64,000 bases of DNA, from NCBI GenBank assembly GCA_021796215.1, contig JAJYOK010000003.1:124001-188000 (forward strand). The letters are read 5' to 3'. Made by a program: the position numbers and the translations under genes. Positions 46,075 to 60,204 of this stretch are shown here, piece by piece; the first letter of the stretch is position 1, and each line of letters starts with the position of its first letter. The notes under the pieces were generated by a model. That model saw only the letters and a list, made by a program, of their open reading frames with translations, was not told the origin of the DNA and searched no databases. This DNA comes from Bacteroidota bacterium (GTDB lineage: Bacteria; Bacteroidota; Ignavibacteria; UBA10030; UBA8401).

Positions 46075-47982
46075 TTATTCTATGCGCATTGTCCCTGCCT
46101 GTTCGGCAGGCAGGTCTGAAACGCTGTAGCTTTGCATTGTAATACATCCGACGGGGCAGCGCATCGCGCAAAGCCCGCACCGAATGCAGCGGTCTTCATC
46201 TTTAATCATCACAGAGCCGACGGTTTCTTCCGTTGCTCCGCCAATAACAATATCGTACCGATCTCGTAATTCGGCATGAAGCGATTCATCCGCCTCAACA
46301 CGGTCCGACACAACAAGATCAATGCACGACTCGGGACAAATATCAACGCAGCCGCCGCAGAGAATACATTCGCTGCCGGTCTCTTCGCCGGCTTCGTTGA
46401 AGATTGTATTTTCCCAGCAGTGCAGGCATCGTGACGCTTCCTGCTGCGCTTGTTCTTCGGTGTACCCAAGCTCAATCTGGGCAACGCCGATCCTGCGGTC
46501 AATTGGAAGAACCGGAATCGGAACACGCTGCCGTTTTTCATATCCCCATTCGCGTTTGAACTGTTTGGTGTTTGCGACAACGATCTCAACCTTGTGTTCA
46601 GAAAGAGAAACCGATACACTGTCTGCGTGCCTGCCGGATAAAAATGAATGTATAGATTGCGCGGCTTTCTTGCCGTTGGCAACCGCATCAATCGCATTGC
46701 GGGGACCGAACGAAACATCACCGCCGGAGAAAATTCCCGGCGCTGTTGTAGCAAGCGTTTCCGGATCTACTTTGATGGTGTTGCGCGGCGTCAGTTCTAT
46801 TCCATCGGCCGGCTTTACCCACGTAAGGTCGGATGTTTGCCCGATTGCCATGATGACCGTATCAGCTTCAATATTTTTCTCGGTGTTCTCCGCAAATTTC
46901 GGATTGAACCTTTTTTGCTCGTCGAAAACTGAAACGCAGTCAACCGTTTCGAAGCCGGTAACTTTTCCATTCTTTCCGATAATTCTGTGCGGGCCTTTTC
47001 GGGGATGAATCTGAATCCGCTCTTCGAGCGCTTCATCAATTTCATCTTTCGACGCGGGCATCTCGTTCCAGTCTTCTAGGCATACCATGTGAACTTCTTT
47101 CGCGCCGAAGCGAACGGCGGAACGTGCAACATCCAGCGCTTCTGCAACTTCTGTCACATGACCTACTTCGGTTTTTTCCTGACGTGCGGCGGTTCGCGCA
47201 ACGTCAATCGCAACATTCCCTCCTCCGACAACGACAACTTTGTTTCCCAATTCAACGCGGTAGCCGAGATTGACATTCAACAGAAAATCTACTGCACGAA
47301 AGACGCCGTCAAATTCAACGCCGTCAATACGAAGGTCGCGGCTCTTGTGTGCGCCGATTGCAATGAACACCGCTTCGTATCCCTGTTTCTTCAGATCGGC
47401 AATTGTGAAATCGCGTCCGACGGCAGAATTCAATTTCAATTCGACTCCGAGGCTCAGGATCGCATTGATTTCGAGACGGATTAATTCCCGCGGAAGGCGG
47501 TATTCCGGAATTCCGAGCCGCAGCATTCCGCCGGCAACGGATTGCGATTCGAACACCGTCACTTCATATCCGAGCAGAGCAAGATCGTGCGCACAGGAAA
47601 GTCCCGCCGGTCCGCCGCCGATGACCGCAACTTTCATCCCGTTCTTTTTAACCGAATTGCCGAACACTTCCTTCAGCTTTTCAAGATCGATCATGCTTTC
47701 AACACCGAAGCGTTCCGTGACAAAACGTTTCAGCGCACGGATAGCAATCGGCTGATCAAGCGCGCCGCGCCGGCAGGCTGTTTCGCACGGTGCAGCGCAC
47801 ACTCGTCCGCAAATTGAGGCGAACGGATTGGGGCGCCGCGCAACATGATATGCTTCCCGGTATTTTCCTTCCGCGATCAGCGCGACGTACCGTCCGGCTT
47901 CCGTATGAACCGGACATGCCGCCATACAGAAAAAATTTGCGTTGAGCCAGTCGAGGTCAACAAATTGCATCCGCTCGGTCAT
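46075..47982 (-). CDS. GltD-like FAD/NAD(P)-binding oxidoreductase with N- and C-terminal iron-sulfur domains
   Basis: A 635-residue protein from ATG 47982 (AGGAG ten bases upstream). The N-terminal Fer4_20-like helical domain has Cys motifs (FFCMAACPVH, CGRVCAAPCETAC). The FAD-binding domain has VIGGGPAGLSCAHDL, and the NAD(P)-binding domain has VVVGGGNVAIDVARTA, followed by GIFSGGDVSFGPRNAIDAVANG. At the C-terminus two [4Fe-4S] ferredoxin motifs are visible, CILCGGCVDICPESC and CIRCGLCAMRCPVGC. The core is the small-subunit (GltD/NfnB) type that moves electrons between NAD(P)H, flavin and iron-sulfur clusters. No gltB large subunit is present. Here it sits inside a Rieske/b operon, which suggests it couples NAD(P)H to the quinol complex. 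Confidence 0.9.
   Translation of the reverse strand: MTERMQFVDLDWLNANFFCMAACPVHTEAGRYVALIAEGKYREAYHVARRPNPFASICGRVCAAPCETACRRGALDQPIAIRALKRFVTERFGVESMIDLEKLKEVFGNSVKKNGMKVAVIGGGPAGLSCAHDLALLGYEVTVFESQSVAGGMLRLGIPEYRLPRELIRLEINAILSLGVELKLNSAVGRDFTIADLKKQGYEAVFIAIGAHKSRDLRIDGVEFDGVFRAVDFLLNVNLGYRVELGNKVVVVGGGNVAIDVARTAARQEKTEVGHVTEVAEALDVARSAVRFGAKEVHMVCLEDWNEMPASKDEIDEALEERIQIHPRKGPHRIIGKNGKVTGFETVDCVSVFDEQKRFNPKFAENTEKNIEADTVIMAIGQTSDLTWVKPADGIELTPRNTIKVDPETLATTAPGIFSGGDVSFGPRNAIDAVANGKKAAQSIHSFLSGRHADSVSVSLSEHKVEIVVANTKQFKREWGYEKRQRVPIPVLPIDRRIGVAQIELGYTEEQAQQEASRCLHCWENTIFNEAGEETGSECILCGGCVDICPESCIDLVVSDRVEADESLHAELRDRYDIVIGGATEETVGSVMIKDEDRCIRCGLCAMRCPVGCITMQSYSVSDLPAEQAGTMRIE
46094..46114. 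repeat. Short palindromic repeat inside the 3' end of the oxidoreductase gene
   Basis: CCTGCCTG (46094-46101) and CAGGCAGG (46107-46114) form a perfect 8-bp hairpin with loop TTCGG. It encodes residues in the final ~12 codons (PAEQAG), after the last ferredoxin motif, so it extends the protein without touching a domain. Confidence 0.55.
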
Positions 47983-54925: not shown

Positions 54926-56770
54926 TTAATGCACGTGGACATTTTCGACCATAACCGGTTCAAGTGCCGCGCCGGGAACAACGATATTCAAAAGTTGCTG
55001 TTCAAATTCCAATAATTCACGCCGCATAATTTCGCGGTACTGCTCTGTTTCTTCTTTCAATTTTGGAATGAGAGATTTATAATACTCGATTCCTTCAAGC
55101 AAGTTCGTCTTGAACGTGTTGAGATAGTGCTGCTCCTTTGTCGTCAACGTTTCAAGTTTTTCCTGTAATTCGTTCCGAAGATATTCTACATACAACCGCA
55201 ACTCCTGAATAAACATATTGGGACGATGTTCAGCAGAAAGCAGCTGCACCCGTCCGTAAATATGCCCCACCATTTCTTCCAGTGATACAATTTTTGAAAA
55301 GTATGCAAGATTCGGTCCGGGGCAGACAGCCGCAGCTCGTTTTTTCTGTCGTGCAAGAGCATTGCTGTTGATGAGAGCGGGAGCCGCGAGATCCTCGCAA
55401 AGGCAGGCTTTCTCGACAACTTTTTCAATTTTCGCCGATAATTCGCCAGGGGAAAGACCTGAGTTTTTCAGTTGTTCAATCTTTGCAGCCTGATATTCCT
55501 TTGATGCAGTGCAGATCGGAACTTCAGTGAATTCTGTGTTTGATATAAGAAATTTTTTCGTGCAAAGACTGCCCGGCGTTCCATTTTCAACGCGGAATTG
55601 TATTTGTTCTTCACTAGAAGTTCCCCTGAAATTGTTGAACGGTATGCCGAGCGGCGAAGCGTTGCTCAGATAGAAATCTTCCCGCCTGCCATGTGCAAGC
55701 ATTGTTCTTGTGTCATCATCAACATTGGTCGCATCGGGAACAAGTAAGAACGGTGAGCCCCAGCCTGTACCGTCAACGCAATAATGCTCACGGAGAAACC
55801 TATCTTCATTTGCCGTACCAATCCCTCCTTGCACTGTGATCTGAAACTGCAGTGCAGAACGCGGCACGGAAATCCCTTTCAGGTGCAGAGCTGTGTCGTA
55901 CAGGTCACACAACTCATCAAGAAGGATTTGTTTTTTCGATTTGAATTCTTCAAGGATAGGTCCCAGCAGATAACCATCGGTAGCAAAAACGTGGCCGCCG
56001 CAATTCAATCCCGATTCGATACGAAATTCCGAACACCAGATTCCTTTTTTCGCCAGCACCTTTCCCTGAATATATGCAGAGCGATAATCGCTCACTTTGA
56101 GAGTTACTTTTTTCCTGAAATTGCCTTCCGCATCAGGTAAAAATTCCGGACACTGCCCAATATAACTGAACAAACGCGGATTCAGTCCCGCGGAAAGAAT
56201 TACTGATGAATTCAACTCGCTTCGTGCAAAGCCGCGGAGCGAAGAAAGCGCATCCGAGAATTCCGGAGGGAGCGGCTCTTTGTTCTTTCCTGTGTTTGTT
56301 TTATCCACCTTGGTCATAATATTAACATTAATATCTCCTGCAATGACATTCGAGCGCAATTCATTTTGCAGAGAAAGTCTTTTTTCTGCATCGTCGGTCT
56401 GCATCATGCGGCGATAGAGAGCTTTCAGCGGTGATTGGTCGGCAAGCATTTCAAAATATTTTACAATGTCGGTTCCCTTTTCAAAAGCAGATGCCTTGAC
56501 CGCCGCAATTTGTTTCTCGACAATTCGCTGAACAAGGTTGAGATACTCGGTGATTCTCCTGGCGCGATGATCATTATCTCTTACAGTAATCGGAGAATAT
56601 TGTTCACCATAAAGAATGGAATAATGTTTCCGCATGTGTTCAATCAGAATATCATCAACGATAGAAATGACTGACGAAATTCCGAAACGCGAAACTCTTA
56701 TCGGAGTATCAATAGAAAATGCCAACCCCAAAACGGGAATATGAAACGTGTGTATCTTTCGGTTTTCCAT
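54926..56770 (-). CDS. Unrecognised conserved-looking 614-residue protein
   Basis: No family was recognised with confidence. The protein is soluble, with no signal peptide. A cysteine/glycine motif IESGLNCGGHVFATDGYLLGP lies near residue 250, followed by VQGGIGTANEDRFL and a DGTGWGSPFLLVPDATNVD segment. The C-terminal third has cysteine motifs (KACLCEDLAAPAL, AVCPGPNLAYFSK) and ends in a ~75-residue coiled coil. The glycine motifs suggest a phosphate- or flavin-binding TIM barrel, perhaps distantly like nitronate monooxygenases, but this is a guess. It is transcribed alone: 157 bp from the kinase gene downstream and 286 bp from the GIY-YIG gene upstream. Confidence 0.75.
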   Translation of the reverse strand: MENRKIHTFHIPVLGLAFSIDTPIRVSRFGISSVISIVDDILIEHMRKHYSILYGEQYSPITVRDNDHRARRITEYLNLVQRIVEKQIAAVKASAFEKGTDIVKYFEMLADQSPLKALYRRMMQTDDAEKRLSLQNELRSNVIAGDINVNIMTKVDKTNTGKNKEPLPPEFSDALSSLRGFARSELNSSVILSAGLNPRLFSYIGQCPEFLPDAEGNFRKKVTLKVSDYRSAYIQGKVLAKKGIWCSEFRIESGLNCGGHVFATDGYLLGPILEEFKSKKQILLDELCDLYDTALHLKGISVPRSALQFQITVQGGIGTANEDRFLREHYCVDGTGWGSPFLLVPDATNVDDDTRTMLAHGRREDFYLSNASPLGIPFNNFRGTSSEEQIQFRVENGTPGSLCTKKFLISNTEFTEVPICTASKEYQAAKIEQLKNSGLSPGELSAKIEKVVEKACLCEDLAAPALINSNALARQKKRAAAVCPGPNLAYFSKIVSLEEMVGHIYGRVQLLSAEHRPNMFIQELRLYVEYLRNELQEKLETLTTKEQHYLNTFKTNLLEGIEYYKSLIPKLKEETEQYREIMRRELLEFEQQLLNIVVPGAALEPVMVENVHVH

Positions 56771-56999
56771 TCTTCAAGCTTTCAAATCAACTATGTGTAT
56801 TTTCTCAATATAAGTGCCGGATTTAATGCCGCACTGCTGCTTATGTATGACTATGTGGAATGACTGCTATAACAAAAAACCCAAGCGGGCATAGAGTTGA
56901 CATTGAAACATGAAGAAAAAAACAACACCAATGCAAATCTGCGGAGGTGGAAAAACAAGAGAGATTTGTCGGGAAGAAACAATGACTTATGGGTTTTCG

Positions 57000-57053
57000 C
57001 TCCGCGAGTAGGGCTCGAACCTACATCCCGACTCTGTCGGGATAACAGCCGCA
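57000..57053 (-). pseudogene. Partial tRNA-Asn copy (anticodon arm to 3' end)
   Basis: On the minus strand it starts with TGCGGCTGTTA, as in the intact tRNA-Asn anticodon arm. The 3' side of the stem is then replaced by a TCCCGAC-AGA-GTCGGGA hairpin, followed by the same T-arm and acceptor 3' strand (GTAGGTTCGAGCCCTAC TCGCGGA G). It cannot fold as a full tRNA because the acceptor 5' strand and D arm are missing. It lies just after the stop of the GIY-YIG gene. Confidence 0.8.
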
Positions 57054-57056
57054 CTG

Positions 57057-57314
57057 TTATAACTCAATCTCGCCTCGTATTAATCGTTCAATCATTTTCG
57101 TGTTTTTCCATGATTTTATTTTTCGTTCTGCCTGTTGTGCGAGATGTTTACTTGAAAAGCTTTTCGTAAAAACTAATTTCCACGGGCGATACCGGGCAGT
57201 ATACCCTTTCTCCATCGTATTGTGAAAGTACAATCTTCGTCTGGGGTCGTTTGACGAACCCTTGTAATATGTTCCTGTCTGTTCTGATTGCAGTATGTAA
57301 AGAAAATATGACAC
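57057..57314 (-). CDS. Small GIY-YIG-family endonuclease beside tRNA-Asn
   Basis: An 85-residue protein starting with GTG at 57314. The GIY-YIG fold motifs are visible: FLYILQSEQTG-TYYKGSS (the YIG element appears as YKG), the catalytic arginine in DPRRRLYFH, and the ending QQAERKIKSWKNTKMIERLI typical of the short UvrC-like/YhbQ group, which ends near residue 85. The family cleaves DNA; some members are homing enzymes. Here it is bracketed by an intact tRNA-Asn 36 bp upstream and a partial second tRNA-Asn immediately downstream, an arrangement that suggests insertion into the tRNA gene. Confidence 0.85.
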   Translation of the reverse strand: MSYFLYILQSEQTGTYYKGSSNDPRRRLYFHNTMEKGYTARYRPWKLVFTKSFSSKHLAQQAERKIKSWKNTKMIERLIRGEIEL

Positions 57315-57350
57315 AAAACAAATAATCCCGATTATTGATCGGGACTCTTG

Positions 57351-57422
57351 CTCCGCGAGTAGGGCTCGAACCTACAACCCTGCGGTTAACAGCCGCATGC
57401 TCTACCATTGAGCTATCGCGGA
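57351..57422 (-). tRNA. tRNA-Asn (anticodon GTT)
   Basis: 72 nt on the minus strand: acceptor TCCGCGA / TCGCGGA with discriminator G; D arm GCTC-AATGGTA-GAGC; anticodon arm TGCGG-CTGTTAA-CCGCA giving anticodon GTT; T arm GTAGG-TTCGAGC-CCTAC. All four stems are perfectly paired. The 3' CCA is not encoded (CAA follows the discriminator). Confidence 0.97.
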
Positions 57423-57551
57423 ATGGTAAAAAAATACGACATTATTGTCGCATCAACTTCAATAAAGATATTGAAATAGCCCCCGAAAGTCAAGAAACTT
57501 TCTCTTATTATACAACAATTCCTTTCCCCAACAGTAAAAAACAGCACTTTC

Positions 57552-57696: not shown

Positions 57697-60204
57697 ATGG
57701 AAGGAAATTTTTCAAACCGCGTTCAGGATGTCATTCGATTGAGCCGTGAAGAAGCGCTTCGACTGGGCCATGATTACATCGGCACGGAACATTTGCTTCT
57801 CGGTATCATACGCGAAGGCGAAGGTATTGCTGTCAAGATCCTTCGGAATCTCGGCGTTGACTTGTACAAGCTAAAAAAAGCGATCGAAGACACTGTCCGC
57901 ACTTCCGGCGGTACATTGACCATCGGCAATATCCCGCTCACAAAGCAGGCGGAAAAAGTGCTGAAGATTACTTACCTCGAAGCGAAATTATACAAATCGG
58001 ATGTTATCGGTACCGAACATTTGCTTCTTTCTCTTCTTCGCGATGATGACAACATCGCGGCGCAGATCATGCACCAATTCAACGTGCATTACGACGCCGT
58101 ACGCAACGAGCTCGATAATATCATCAGCGGAAAACCATCCACACCGGCACAAGGACATGGCGCCGGCGGAGAGAAGAGGCAGGAAAAATCGAAGACTCCT
58201 GTTCTCGATAATTTCGGGCGCGATCTCACAAAACTTGCAGGTGAAGGAAAACTTGATCCGGTTGTCGGGCGTGAAAAAGAAATCGAGCGCGTAGCACAAG
58301 TATTAAGCCGCCGCAAAAAAAATAACCCTGTTCTCATCGGCGAGCCGGGCGTCGGCAAAACGGCAATTGCAGAAGGACTTGCGCTTCGCATTGTTCAGAA
58401 GAAGGTTTCGCGTGTGTTGCACGACAAACGCGTCGTAACCCTCGATCTCGCCGCACTTGTTGCCGGCACAAAATACCGCGGTCAGTTTGAAGAGCGCATG
58501 AAAGCTGTCATGAACGAATTGGAAAAAGCGAAAGATGTCATTCTCTTCATAGATGAACTCCATACTATCGTCGGCGCAGGCGGCGCATCCGGATCGCTCG
58601 ATGCATCGAATATGTTCAAGCCCGCGCTCTCACGCGGCGAACTGCAATGCATCGGCGCCACCACACTTGACGAATACCGCCAGTATATTGAAAAGGACGG
58701 CGCTCTCGACCGCCGTTTCCAGAAAATTATGGTTGACCCGACAACAGTCGAGGAAACAATCCAAATTTTGAAAAATATTAAACAGAAATACGAGGAACAC
58801 CACGGCGTTCGTTATTCAGAACAAGCGCTCGACTCCGCTGTGCGCCTGAGTGACCGCTACATCAGTGATAGAAATCTGCCGGACAAAGCCATTGATGTTC
58901 TTGACGAGGCGGGCGCGCGCGTCCATCTTGCCAACATTGTCGTGCCGAAAGAAATTCTTACGCTTGAAGAAGAGATTGAAAAGATCAAGCAGTCAAAAAA
59001 TCAGGTCGTGAAGAACCAAAATTTTGAAGAAGCGGCGCGGCTGCGCGATCTGGAAAAGAAATATCTGAGCGATCTCGAAATTGCAAAGCGCGAATGGGAG
59101 CTGAAAGCTCAGGACACCATTTATGAAGTGAGTGAAGAAAACGTTTCCGATGTCGTTGCAATGATGACCGGAATTCCCGTAAACAAGATCGCCGAGTCCG
59201 AATCGAATAAGCTATTGAAAATGGAAACTGTTCTCCGAAGCCAGATCATCGGACAAGACGAAGCAATCATTAAGCTGACAAAAGCAATCCGCCGCGCGCG
59301 TGCCGGATTAAAAGACCCGCGCCGTCCCATCGGCTCATTCATCTTTCTTGGACCAACAGGGGTTGGAAAAACCGAAATGGCGAAAGCGCTCGCACGCTAC
59401 CTTTTCGATTCCGAAGAAGCGTTAATCCGCATTGACATGAGCGAGTACATGGAAAAATTTTCCGTGTCGCGGCTCGTCGGAGCGCCTCCCGGCTACATCG
59501 GTTACGAAGAAGGCGGGCAGCTTACTGAAAAAGTACGGCGGAAACCCTATTCCGTTGTGCTGCTTGATGAGATTGAAAAAGCACATCCGGATGTTTTTAA
59601 TATTCTTCTGCAGGTGCTTGATGACGGCATGCTTACCGACAGCCTCGGCAGACGTGTTGACTTCAAAAATACCATTCTCATCATGACATCGAACATTGGT
59701 GCGCGTGATATTAAAATCGGCACTGGCGGTTTCGGCTTTGGTGATGCAACCGTACAGGATAATTACAAGACGATGAAGAATACTATTGAAGAGGCGCTCA
59801 AGCGCGTCTTCAATCCGGAATTTCTCAATCGAGTTGACGATACCCTCGTGTTCCATTCTCTTGAAAAATCTGACATTCTGAAAATCATTGATATTGCCAC
59901 GAAAGATCTATTCAAGCGCATGAACTCAATGAACATTACCGTCGAACTGAACAAGGCGGCAAAAGAATTCCTTGCAGAAAAAGGCTTCGACCCGAATTTT
60001 GGCGCGCGGCCGTTACGCCGGGCGTTGCAGAAATATATTGAAGACCCGATTGCCGAGGAAATTCTCAAAGGAAAGTTCAGTGAAGGAAGCAAGATCAGGG
60101 TAACGTTTAACAAGAAAACTGAAGAACTCAAATTTACCGACGCTAACAAAAACCGCCATAACGCTCCGCAGCACGAAGAGGAAAAACCTGCTGACGTTGC
60201 ATAA
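57697..60204 (+). CDS. clpC: ATP-dependent Clp protease ATP-binding subunit ClpC
   Basis: The 835-residue Hsp100 unfoldase feeds proteins to ClpP or refolds aggregates. Domains: double Clp_N repeat at ~1-145; AAA+ 1 with Walker A GEPGVGKT (~215) and Walker B ILFIDELH; a UVR-containing middle region (~425-470, [15 protein letters not shown]) that marks ClpC rather than ClpA or ClpB; AAA+ 2 with Walker A GPTGVGKT (~552) and Walker [12 protein letters not shown]; and a D2-small C-terminal domain with [17 protein letters not shown]. It is monocistronic, with its own promoter and terminator. The clpP gene is not in the window. Confidence 0.97.

Follow-up and report, generated by a model that had tools for sequence, protein, structure and literature searches.

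A gene for an 85-residue GIY-YIG nuclease lies between an intact tRNA-Asn gene and a displaced, palindrome-bearing 3′ copy of the same tRNA in the window, the whole 64,000-nucleotide stretch of Bacteroidota DNA analyzed here. The same layout recurs at dozens of tRNA genes, so the arrangement is not a product of chance. We consider it probable that the unit is a minimal, intron-less homing-type element, encoding a nuclease of the Slx1/UPF0213 branch, that enters tRNA genes near the anticodon and restores one half of the interrupted gene. In the mechanism that we propose, the enzyme would cut an element-free allele of its cognate tRNA gene at or near the anticodon arm, the break would be repaired from an element-bearing copy, and the two tRNA halves, of which the intact copy and the broken copy hold one each, would serve as homology arms. 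Because the element would bring its own 3′ half (type A, as in the window) or its own 5′ half (type B), the product would always hold one intact tRNA, and the displaced native half would persist in broken form, with one of its tRNA arms bearing a palindrome.

The window locus and its empty counterparts

On the minus strand, the order at the window locus is intact tRNA-Asn, a 35-bp gap with a terminator-like hairpin, the GIY-YIG gene, and the broken 3′ copy of tRNA-Asn. This is the order proposed by an earlier sequence-only reading, which had also noted the gap but had given its length as 36 bp. The intact tRNA-Asn(GTT) gene (57350–57422, minus strand) is the sole tRNA called by ARAGORN in the whole window, and a sigma-70-like promoter candidate (TTGACT-17-TATCTT; 57465–57493, minus strand; a consensus match only) lies upstream of it. 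In the interval between the tRNA and the nuclease gene, the hairpin AGTCCCGATCAATAATCGGGATT and its T-rich tail (57324–57346, minus strand) are followed directly by the GTG start of the nuclease gene; comparable hairpins precede the GIY-YIG gene in many 3′-type elements. The nuclease gene itself (57057–57314, minus strand) encodes 85 amino acids, as had been claimed, and contains a single GIY-YIG domain (Pfam PF01541, E = 4e-16) with UPF0213 and SLX1 as closest solved relatives. It is the only ORF of the element with a recognized domain, and no integrase or other gene was found inside the unit. The element, ~300–350 bp long, combines a single-domain GIY-YIG gene with a duplicate of part of the tRNA gene that it targets. 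Neighboring ORFs include one of 614 amino acids immediately downstream of the element (54926–56770, minus strand), which has no Pfam match, and a ClpC-like AAA ORF (57697–60204, plus strand) that is divergent from tRNA-Asn.

The broken copy (56999–57053, minus strand) starts 3 bases past the GIY-YIG stop codon and aligns with tRNA nucleotides 26–73 (E = 8e-10), bearing out the claim that it repeats 3′ parts of tRNA-Asn. Its sequence, TGCGGCTGTTA + TCCCGACAGAGTCGGGA + TGTAGGTTCGAGCCCTACTCGCGGAGC, consists of tRNA nucleotides 26–36, a palindrome, and then the remaining variable loop, T arm, and acceptor 3′ strand, all unaltered; the sole difference from tRNA-Asn is that ACCGCAGGGT, the anticodon-stem 3′ strand and its neighbor, is swapped for the palindrome TCCCGACAGAGTCGGGA (57026–57042, minus strand). 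A hairpin does stand in place of the anticodon stem, as the earlier reading had stated, but it is not peculiar to this locus: at L089, L196, and L208, the same place is occupied by a near-identical hairpin, and the tRNA-Asn lineage represented by these loci and the window carries one kind of hairpin in one place in both fragment types and in different genera.

We looked for tRNA-Asn across the GTDB family and found the identical gene without any GIY-YIG gene in two genomes of the same genus (G001 and G002), the site being occupied in the window's genome (G000). The G001 tRNA-Asn is 100% identical to that of the window, both flanks can be aligned, and the promoter-side sequence matches. Past the G001 tRNA, the sequence (GAAATAAACCGGTAAATTCATTGTTTTTTCCCGCCAAATCTCTCTCG) corresponds to that past the window fragment (GAAAACCCATAAGTCATTGTTTCTTCCCGACAAATCTCTCTTG); because the native 3′ flank adjoins the fragment and not the intact tRNA, the fragment is the displaced native 3′ end. 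This alignment of occupied and empty alleles shows insertion and displacement of the native half, and it suggests that the intact tRNA-Asn combines a native 5′ part with a 3′ part supplied by the element. The earlier proposal, that a minimal mobile unit entered the tRNA gene and made it whole again by supplying a 3′ part, is thus supported by a same-genus empty site with an identical tRNA, matching flanks, and a native 3′ flank that now lies past the fragment.

The window's genome also contains the mirror case. At tRNA-Leu(CAA), a 5′ fragment with a palindrome is followed by a GIY-YIG gene and then by the intact tRNA; a promoter-like segment lies ahead of the 5′ fragment, and a similar one lies directly ahead of the intact tRNA in G001 and G002, where the site is empty. 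This comparison is limited to the promoter side because gene order around tRNA-Leu(CAA) is rearranged. For both tRNA-Asn and tRNA-Leu, close relatives carry the empty and occupied alleles that would be expected of a homing element. At the occupied tRNA-Asn site, the broken copy is disrupted while the intact tRNA is identical to the empty allele, and a nuclease that recognized the tRNA sequence alone should therefore cut its own host. Self-protection is a real gap in the homing account, to which low expression behind the terminator or a requirement for a DNA structure are possible answers.

Recurrence, target matching, and probable entry site

The window's genome has 12 GIY-YIG matches. At least five of them are complete copies, each beside a tRNA gene of which a piece is duplicated (Asn, Ser-GGA, Pro-CGG, Pro-GGG, and Leu-CAA), and a frame-broken copy lies at Ser-TGA. 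Across 22 genomes of the family, the Pfam model identified 92 distinct single-domain copies, a set that includes fragments of broken genes and for which flanks were read; 39 of these copies (42%) have a tRNA gene no more than 250 bp away. A genome with about 45 tRNAs in 3.4 Mb would, by our estimate, give an adjacency of roughly 1%. A maximum-likelihood tree of the family set separates a clade of 44 from a sister clade of 38, with L021 apart. All 44 members of the first clade are at tRNA loci (41 were labeled tRNA-linked, and the other 3 proved on reading to have tRNA-Asn or tRNA-Ser fragments), compared to 0 of the 38 sister-clade copies in this set. At L021 (around 919–1137 of G002:C264), the GIY-YIG gene lies within an apparent tyrosine recombinase gene and has inverted sequences, TTCACCCCGTGAG and CTCACGGGGTGAA, at its borders.

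Of 247 genomes sampled from the phylum, 145 contain matches (E ≤ 1e-12) to a profile built from the tRNA clade. In a wider set, the phylum part of which was chosen by score against the tRNA clade and is not random, 88 of 164 copies with adequate flanks lie within 250 bp of a tRNA. The GIY-YIG gene and the tRNA are co-directional in all 88, a fixed orientation, and 73 of the 88 have a broken copy of the same tRNA across the gene, with 51 downstream 3′ fragments (type A) and 22 upstream 5′ fragments (type B). Named relatives from a single-protein contig scan belong to Ignavibacterium, Flavobacteriales, Saprospiraceae, and Zixiibacteriota, and most of them have a fragment of this kind. The search for further tRNAs with a GIY-YIG gene and a 3′ fragment, which the sequence-only reading had suggested, was productive, and its expectation that relatives would keep the gene beside a tRNA and retain the fragment held in the tRNA clade, where all copies are at tRNA loci and the fragment is almost always present. 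That reading needs widening in two respects: the mirror form that restores the 5′ part is also common, and the palindrome of the fragment is recurrent.

Some loci depart from the simple layout. L152 (G254:C1:120138–122150) has five near-identical GIY-YIG genes in tandem with a 450-bp period, and L153, L155, and L177 have two or three copies in tandem. At L017 and L005, parts of tRNA-Ser or tRNA-Pro are repeated in tandem with the anticodon arm exchanged, and no GIY-YIG gene separates the repeats; these loci could be solo remnants or an intermediate. With one query protein for each collection, we found no match to the window protein in 50,697 phage records and no relative of a family member in a plasmid collection, and we set aside a phage or plasmid origin.

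When isoacceptor labels were placed on a tree of 86 tRNA-linked proteins, 35 changes were required, compared to a mean of 64.2 for shuffled labels, and none of 200 shuffles gave a number as low. One group comprises nine Pro-GGG copies from 8 genomes and 2 families and holds both type A and type B; Pro-CGG copies (two families), Ser-GGA groups, and Leu groups likewise cross families. Close copies account for part of this clustering, although the groups nonetheless span families, and the isoacceptor claim rests on overall clustering because the alignment is short and many forks are weak. As judged from this clustering, our results show that each nuclease lineage is matched to one tRNA isoacceptor.

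Two alternatives bear on these counts. In the first, a small GIY-YIG repair gene landed by chance next to tRNA genes, which are especially prone to tandem duplication and to the capture of other genes; this accords with the general knowledge that tRNA genes are integration hot spots and that UPF0213-like genes are widespread. Such ordinary hitchhiking is strongly disfavored by the 42% adjacency in the family set, the clade with 44 of 44 members at tRNA loci, the co-direction of all 88 tRNA-near copies, and the isoacceptor-matched phylogeny; the unit also lacks an integrase or other gene, and we give this explanation hardly any credence. In the second, the protein would be an RNase toxin that cleaves its cognate tRNA near the anticodon, and the adjacent broken copy, with its substituted arm, would be a decoy RNA antidote. 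Both the matching of protein lineages to isoacceptors and the retention of tRNA-like parts with one substituted arm would suit such a pair. The broken copy is, however, often only 20–50 nt and can be either 5′ or 3′, displacement of the native half by the insertion accounts for it, the PADLOC anti-phage defense models gave no match, and characterized GIY-YIG domains are, to our knowledge, DNases. A toxin and antidote is thus, in our view, very improbable.

The ends of the fragments bear on where the element enters. All 22 type B fragments begin at the tRNA 5′ end, and 47 of 50 type A fragments reach the tRNA 3′ end. Relative to the first anticodon base, type B fragments end at a median of +1.5 nt (middle half, −2 to +8). 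Type A starts are mostly at or upstream of this base; they scatter widely, which counts against the homing account. For Ser-GCT, a clean 3′ fragment begins at nucleotide 36 (L149), and a 5′ fragment in another genome extends to nucleotide 35 (L131). In the related genome G006, the anticodon loop of tRNA-Asn is interrupted by a group I intron of 250 nt (L119/L121, G006:C77; Rfam E = 3e-24), and a tRNA read as Asp contains a weak group I match (E = 2e-6, below the gathering score; L095, 1177–1381 of G006:C234); these were the only matches of the group I intron model (Rfam RF00028), which had none at the window locus (L004). Because fragment ends, the Ser-GCT break points, and group I introns cluster there, the anticodon arm is most likely the entry site. 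Insertion near the anticodon, taken together with isoacceptor-matched lineages, provides indirect support for a putative cleavage of the host site. Two further arrangements were seen in G006: at L119/L121, a 5′ tRNA-Asn fragment with palindromes lies just upstream of the intron-bearing tRNA-Asn, and at L095, the apparent tRNA-Asp adjoins a GIY-YIG gene and 5′ tRNA fragments.

The nuclease and the palindromes

The window protein scored 59.5 bits against Pfam PF01541 (cut-off 22.6), which places it in the GIY-YIG superfamily, and 25 aligned members share the invariant GIY-YIG residues Y4, Y15, G17, R25, H29, and E61, the catalytic residues among them. No named NCBIfam family covers this protein, and no family other than GIY-YIG matched it; it is not a Y1 (TnpA_REP) transposase. 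In a PDB profile search, the E-values were 1.6e-14 for UPF0213 and 7e-8 for SLX1 but only 0.06 for I-TevI. The aligned domain, which stops short of the extreme C-terminus, has no conserved C-terminal Asn, and prokaryotic stand-alone Slx1-type domains have been placed apart from UvrC and the homing enzymes, which share a C-terminal Asn (Dunin-Horkawicz et al., PMC1564403). Its closest solved relatives and its stand-alone minimal domain assign the window protein to the Slx1/UPF0213 branch, a placement that counts against the homing account, as the known homing GIY-YIG enzymes are in the I-TevI/UvrC branch (PMC1564403). For related copy pairs where it could be computed, dN/dS was 0.08–0.22, showing that the protein is under purifying selection for function. 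On comparative evidence, the element appears to work like a gene-restoring homing element, and membership of its nuclease among the homing endonucleases is putative.

Perfect hairpins with arms of at least 6 were present in 53 of 73 broken copies compared to 23 of 73 intact tRNAs, and by our reading of the alignments most of the remaining broken copies have shorter double hairpins. The palindromes are mainly in arm loops: many type A copies have one in the T loop, with TTC before it and GA after it, at a distance of 18 nt from the 3′ end. In type B copies, the D loop carries one at its 3′ end, and in other cases a palindrome substitutes for the anticodon arm. In the Pro-GGG clade, the hairpin is in the D loop in type B and in the anticodon stem in type A. 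We do not read the hairpin as the cut site because its position within the tRNA varies inside a protein clade; the idea that it is an immunity mark at the cut site is weakened, as this position shifts with fragment type inside one clade. Elsewhere in the window, the palindrome CCTGCCTGTTCGGCAGGCAGG (46094–46114) is of the CCTGCC..GGCAGG type that broken copies of tRNA-Arg and tRNA-Leu carry in their D loops.

As to what the palindrome does, our leading guess is that it inactivates the broken copy and so reduces excision by recombination and misfolding of the tRNA; alternatively, it could protect against cutting, or it could be a mobile palindrome that inserts into hairpin loops. We folded 52 transcripts at equilibrium with and without the palindrome, a calculation that is unreliable for long RNAs, and the native acceptor stem shifted by more than 0.1 in the predicted direction in 5 and in the opposite direction in 0. 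Owing to competition from the distal copy, most values were close to zero whether or not the palindrome was present.

Palindromes also occur away from tRNA genes. A 22-nt double-hairpin repeat (e.g., TTCCAAAGGAATCCCTTTGGGA; CCNAAGGNATCCCTTYGGGA) is present at about 25 dispersed loci in the window's genome (including L212–L231), and several copies are enclosed by a larger terminator-like hairpin (AAGATGGACTCC..GGAGTCCATCTT) whose loop holds the repeat. Away from tRNAs, 6 of 20 copies lie inside a helix of at least 12 pairs compared to 3–4% of control positions, an excess that is clear, though small in number, and that depends on a cut-off picked after the data had been seen; under a looser criterion (at least 6), 6 of 20 compared to about 12% of controls was no clear excess. 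In the sister clade, direct repeats flank 13 of 33 copies compared to 4 of 200 control positions, with inverted repeats at 5 more. Sister-clade GIY-YIG genes lie among REP-like palindromic repeats (GTCATTCTGAG..GAAGAATC, CACTGAGCGGAGTCGAAGTG, and ATTCCCGC..GCGGGAAT) at L001, L002, and L006 (G000:C11:10399, C14:160092, and C15:68922) and in relatives.

These observations raise a palindrome-driven system as an alternative, in which the GIY-YIG protein would act on DNA hairpins (REP-like palindromes, cruciforms, or the single-stranded cloverleaf of a tRNA gene) and would spread palindromes into hairpin loops, with tRNA loci as one target class and the duplications as by-products of repair. The frequent location of the sister clade among repeats and its excess of flanking repeats, the palindromes in the D, anticodon, and T loops of broken tRNA copies, the dispersal of the 22-nt repeat and its helix counts, and the Slx1-type structure-specific nucleases among the closest solved relatives all point in this direction. 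Taken alone, however, such a system leaves unexplained the isoacceptor-matched clades, the uniform co-direction, and the closeness of fragment ends to the anticodon. In addition, five other genomes carrying tRNA-linked nucleases have few or no copies of the 22-nt repeat, and we judge a palindrome-driven system unlikely. A more ambitious reading would join both sets of observations: a phylum-wide family of Slx1-lineage GIY-YIG nucleases, turned isoacceptor-specific and selfish, each of which splits its tRNA gene and restores it from either side, with short palindromes in hairpin loops as an integral part of the cycle and a structure-guided nuclease that mobilizes both tRNA-linked units and units linked to REP-like palindromes. 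We advance this version only tentatively and think it rather doubtful.

Relation to known mobile elements

That the arrangement recurs at many tRNA genes across the phylum suggests minimal selfish elements of a widespread family, to which tRNA genes, by their conservation, could offer near-universal docking sites. If our interpretation is correct, an 85-codon enzyme that enters an essential tRNA gene and leaves it intact without an intron would be among the smallest mobile elements known, selfish behavior would extend to the Slx1 branch of GIY-YIG nucleases, otherwise viewed as repair enzymes, and clusters of broken tRNA copies that annotation ignores would be explained. The family is a source of many natural pairs of occupied and empty sites for homing assays, and its tRNA-specific subfamilies could supply new sequence-specific nucleases. 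We found no description of bacterial tRNA-linked GIY-YIG elements of this kind in the open-access literature, and one may exist elsewhere.

Several known systems share individual features with these elements. Genomic islands with tyrosine integrases, like type A elements, restore the tRNA 3′ end with a duplicated 3′ segment, whereas the elements described here have no integrase, a unit of ~300 bp, an insertion zone in the anticodon arm, and a mirror 5′ form. REP/RAYT systems likewise associate short palindromes with a nuclease gene, but the enzyme here is a GIY-YIG protein and not a Y1 transposase, and it is linked to tRNA genes. UPF0213/YhbQ proteins, prokaryotic stand-alone GIY-YIG proteins of the Slx1 lineage, belong to the same sequence family as the window protein, whose best PDB matches are to UPF0213 and SLX1; they are regarded as housekeeping or structure-specific nucleases, and we know of no tie to tRNA duplications. 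Among phage enzymes, SegB is linked to a phage tRNA region, and we know of no target-restoring duplication in Seg enzymes. The T-even phage Seg family consists of free-standing GIY-YIG homing endonucleases (PMC2988022, PMC13096335), small enzymes like the window protein but phage-borne, whereas the window protein is without a match in phage records.

The closest counterparts in logic are mobile ORFs of fungal mitochondria with a duplicated gene tail, found in Allomyces atp6, Rhizopus atp9, Mortierella cox2, and Glomus atp6, atp9, cox2, and nad3 (PMC3630166). As in the window element, an intron-less endonuclease ORF brings a replacement gene 3′ end and the native tail is moved downstream (PMC3630166); by sequence comparison, the window locus appears to have both hallmarks, a replacement tail that adjoins the ORF and a displaced native tail. 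The fungal ORFs differ in residing in mitochondrial protein genes, in being larger (LAGLIDADG in Glomus atp6), and in carrying foreign, diverged tails (PMC3630166), whereas the elements described here are in tRNA genes of bacterial chromosomes, encode an 85-amino-acid GIY-YIG protein, restore either the 5′ or the 3′ part, and have palindromes in the displaced copy. In site, the counterparts are group I introns in bacterial tRNA anticodon loops and their endonucleases, exemplified by a tRNA-fMet endonuclease (Bonocora and Shub, 2001, via PMC3984707) and I-Ssp6803I. They too involve endonuclease-linked invasion of a tRNA gene at the anticodon, and the relative G006 has such an intron, but the window element has no intron and keeps gene function by duplication and not by splicing, and I-Ssp6803I is a PD-(D/E)XK enzyme, a nuclease family unlike the GIY-YIG family of the window protein. 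By analogy, then, the proposed logic of the window element matches that of the tail-duplicating fungal mitochondrial ORFs, and its site matches that of the tRNA anticodon introns and their endonucleases.
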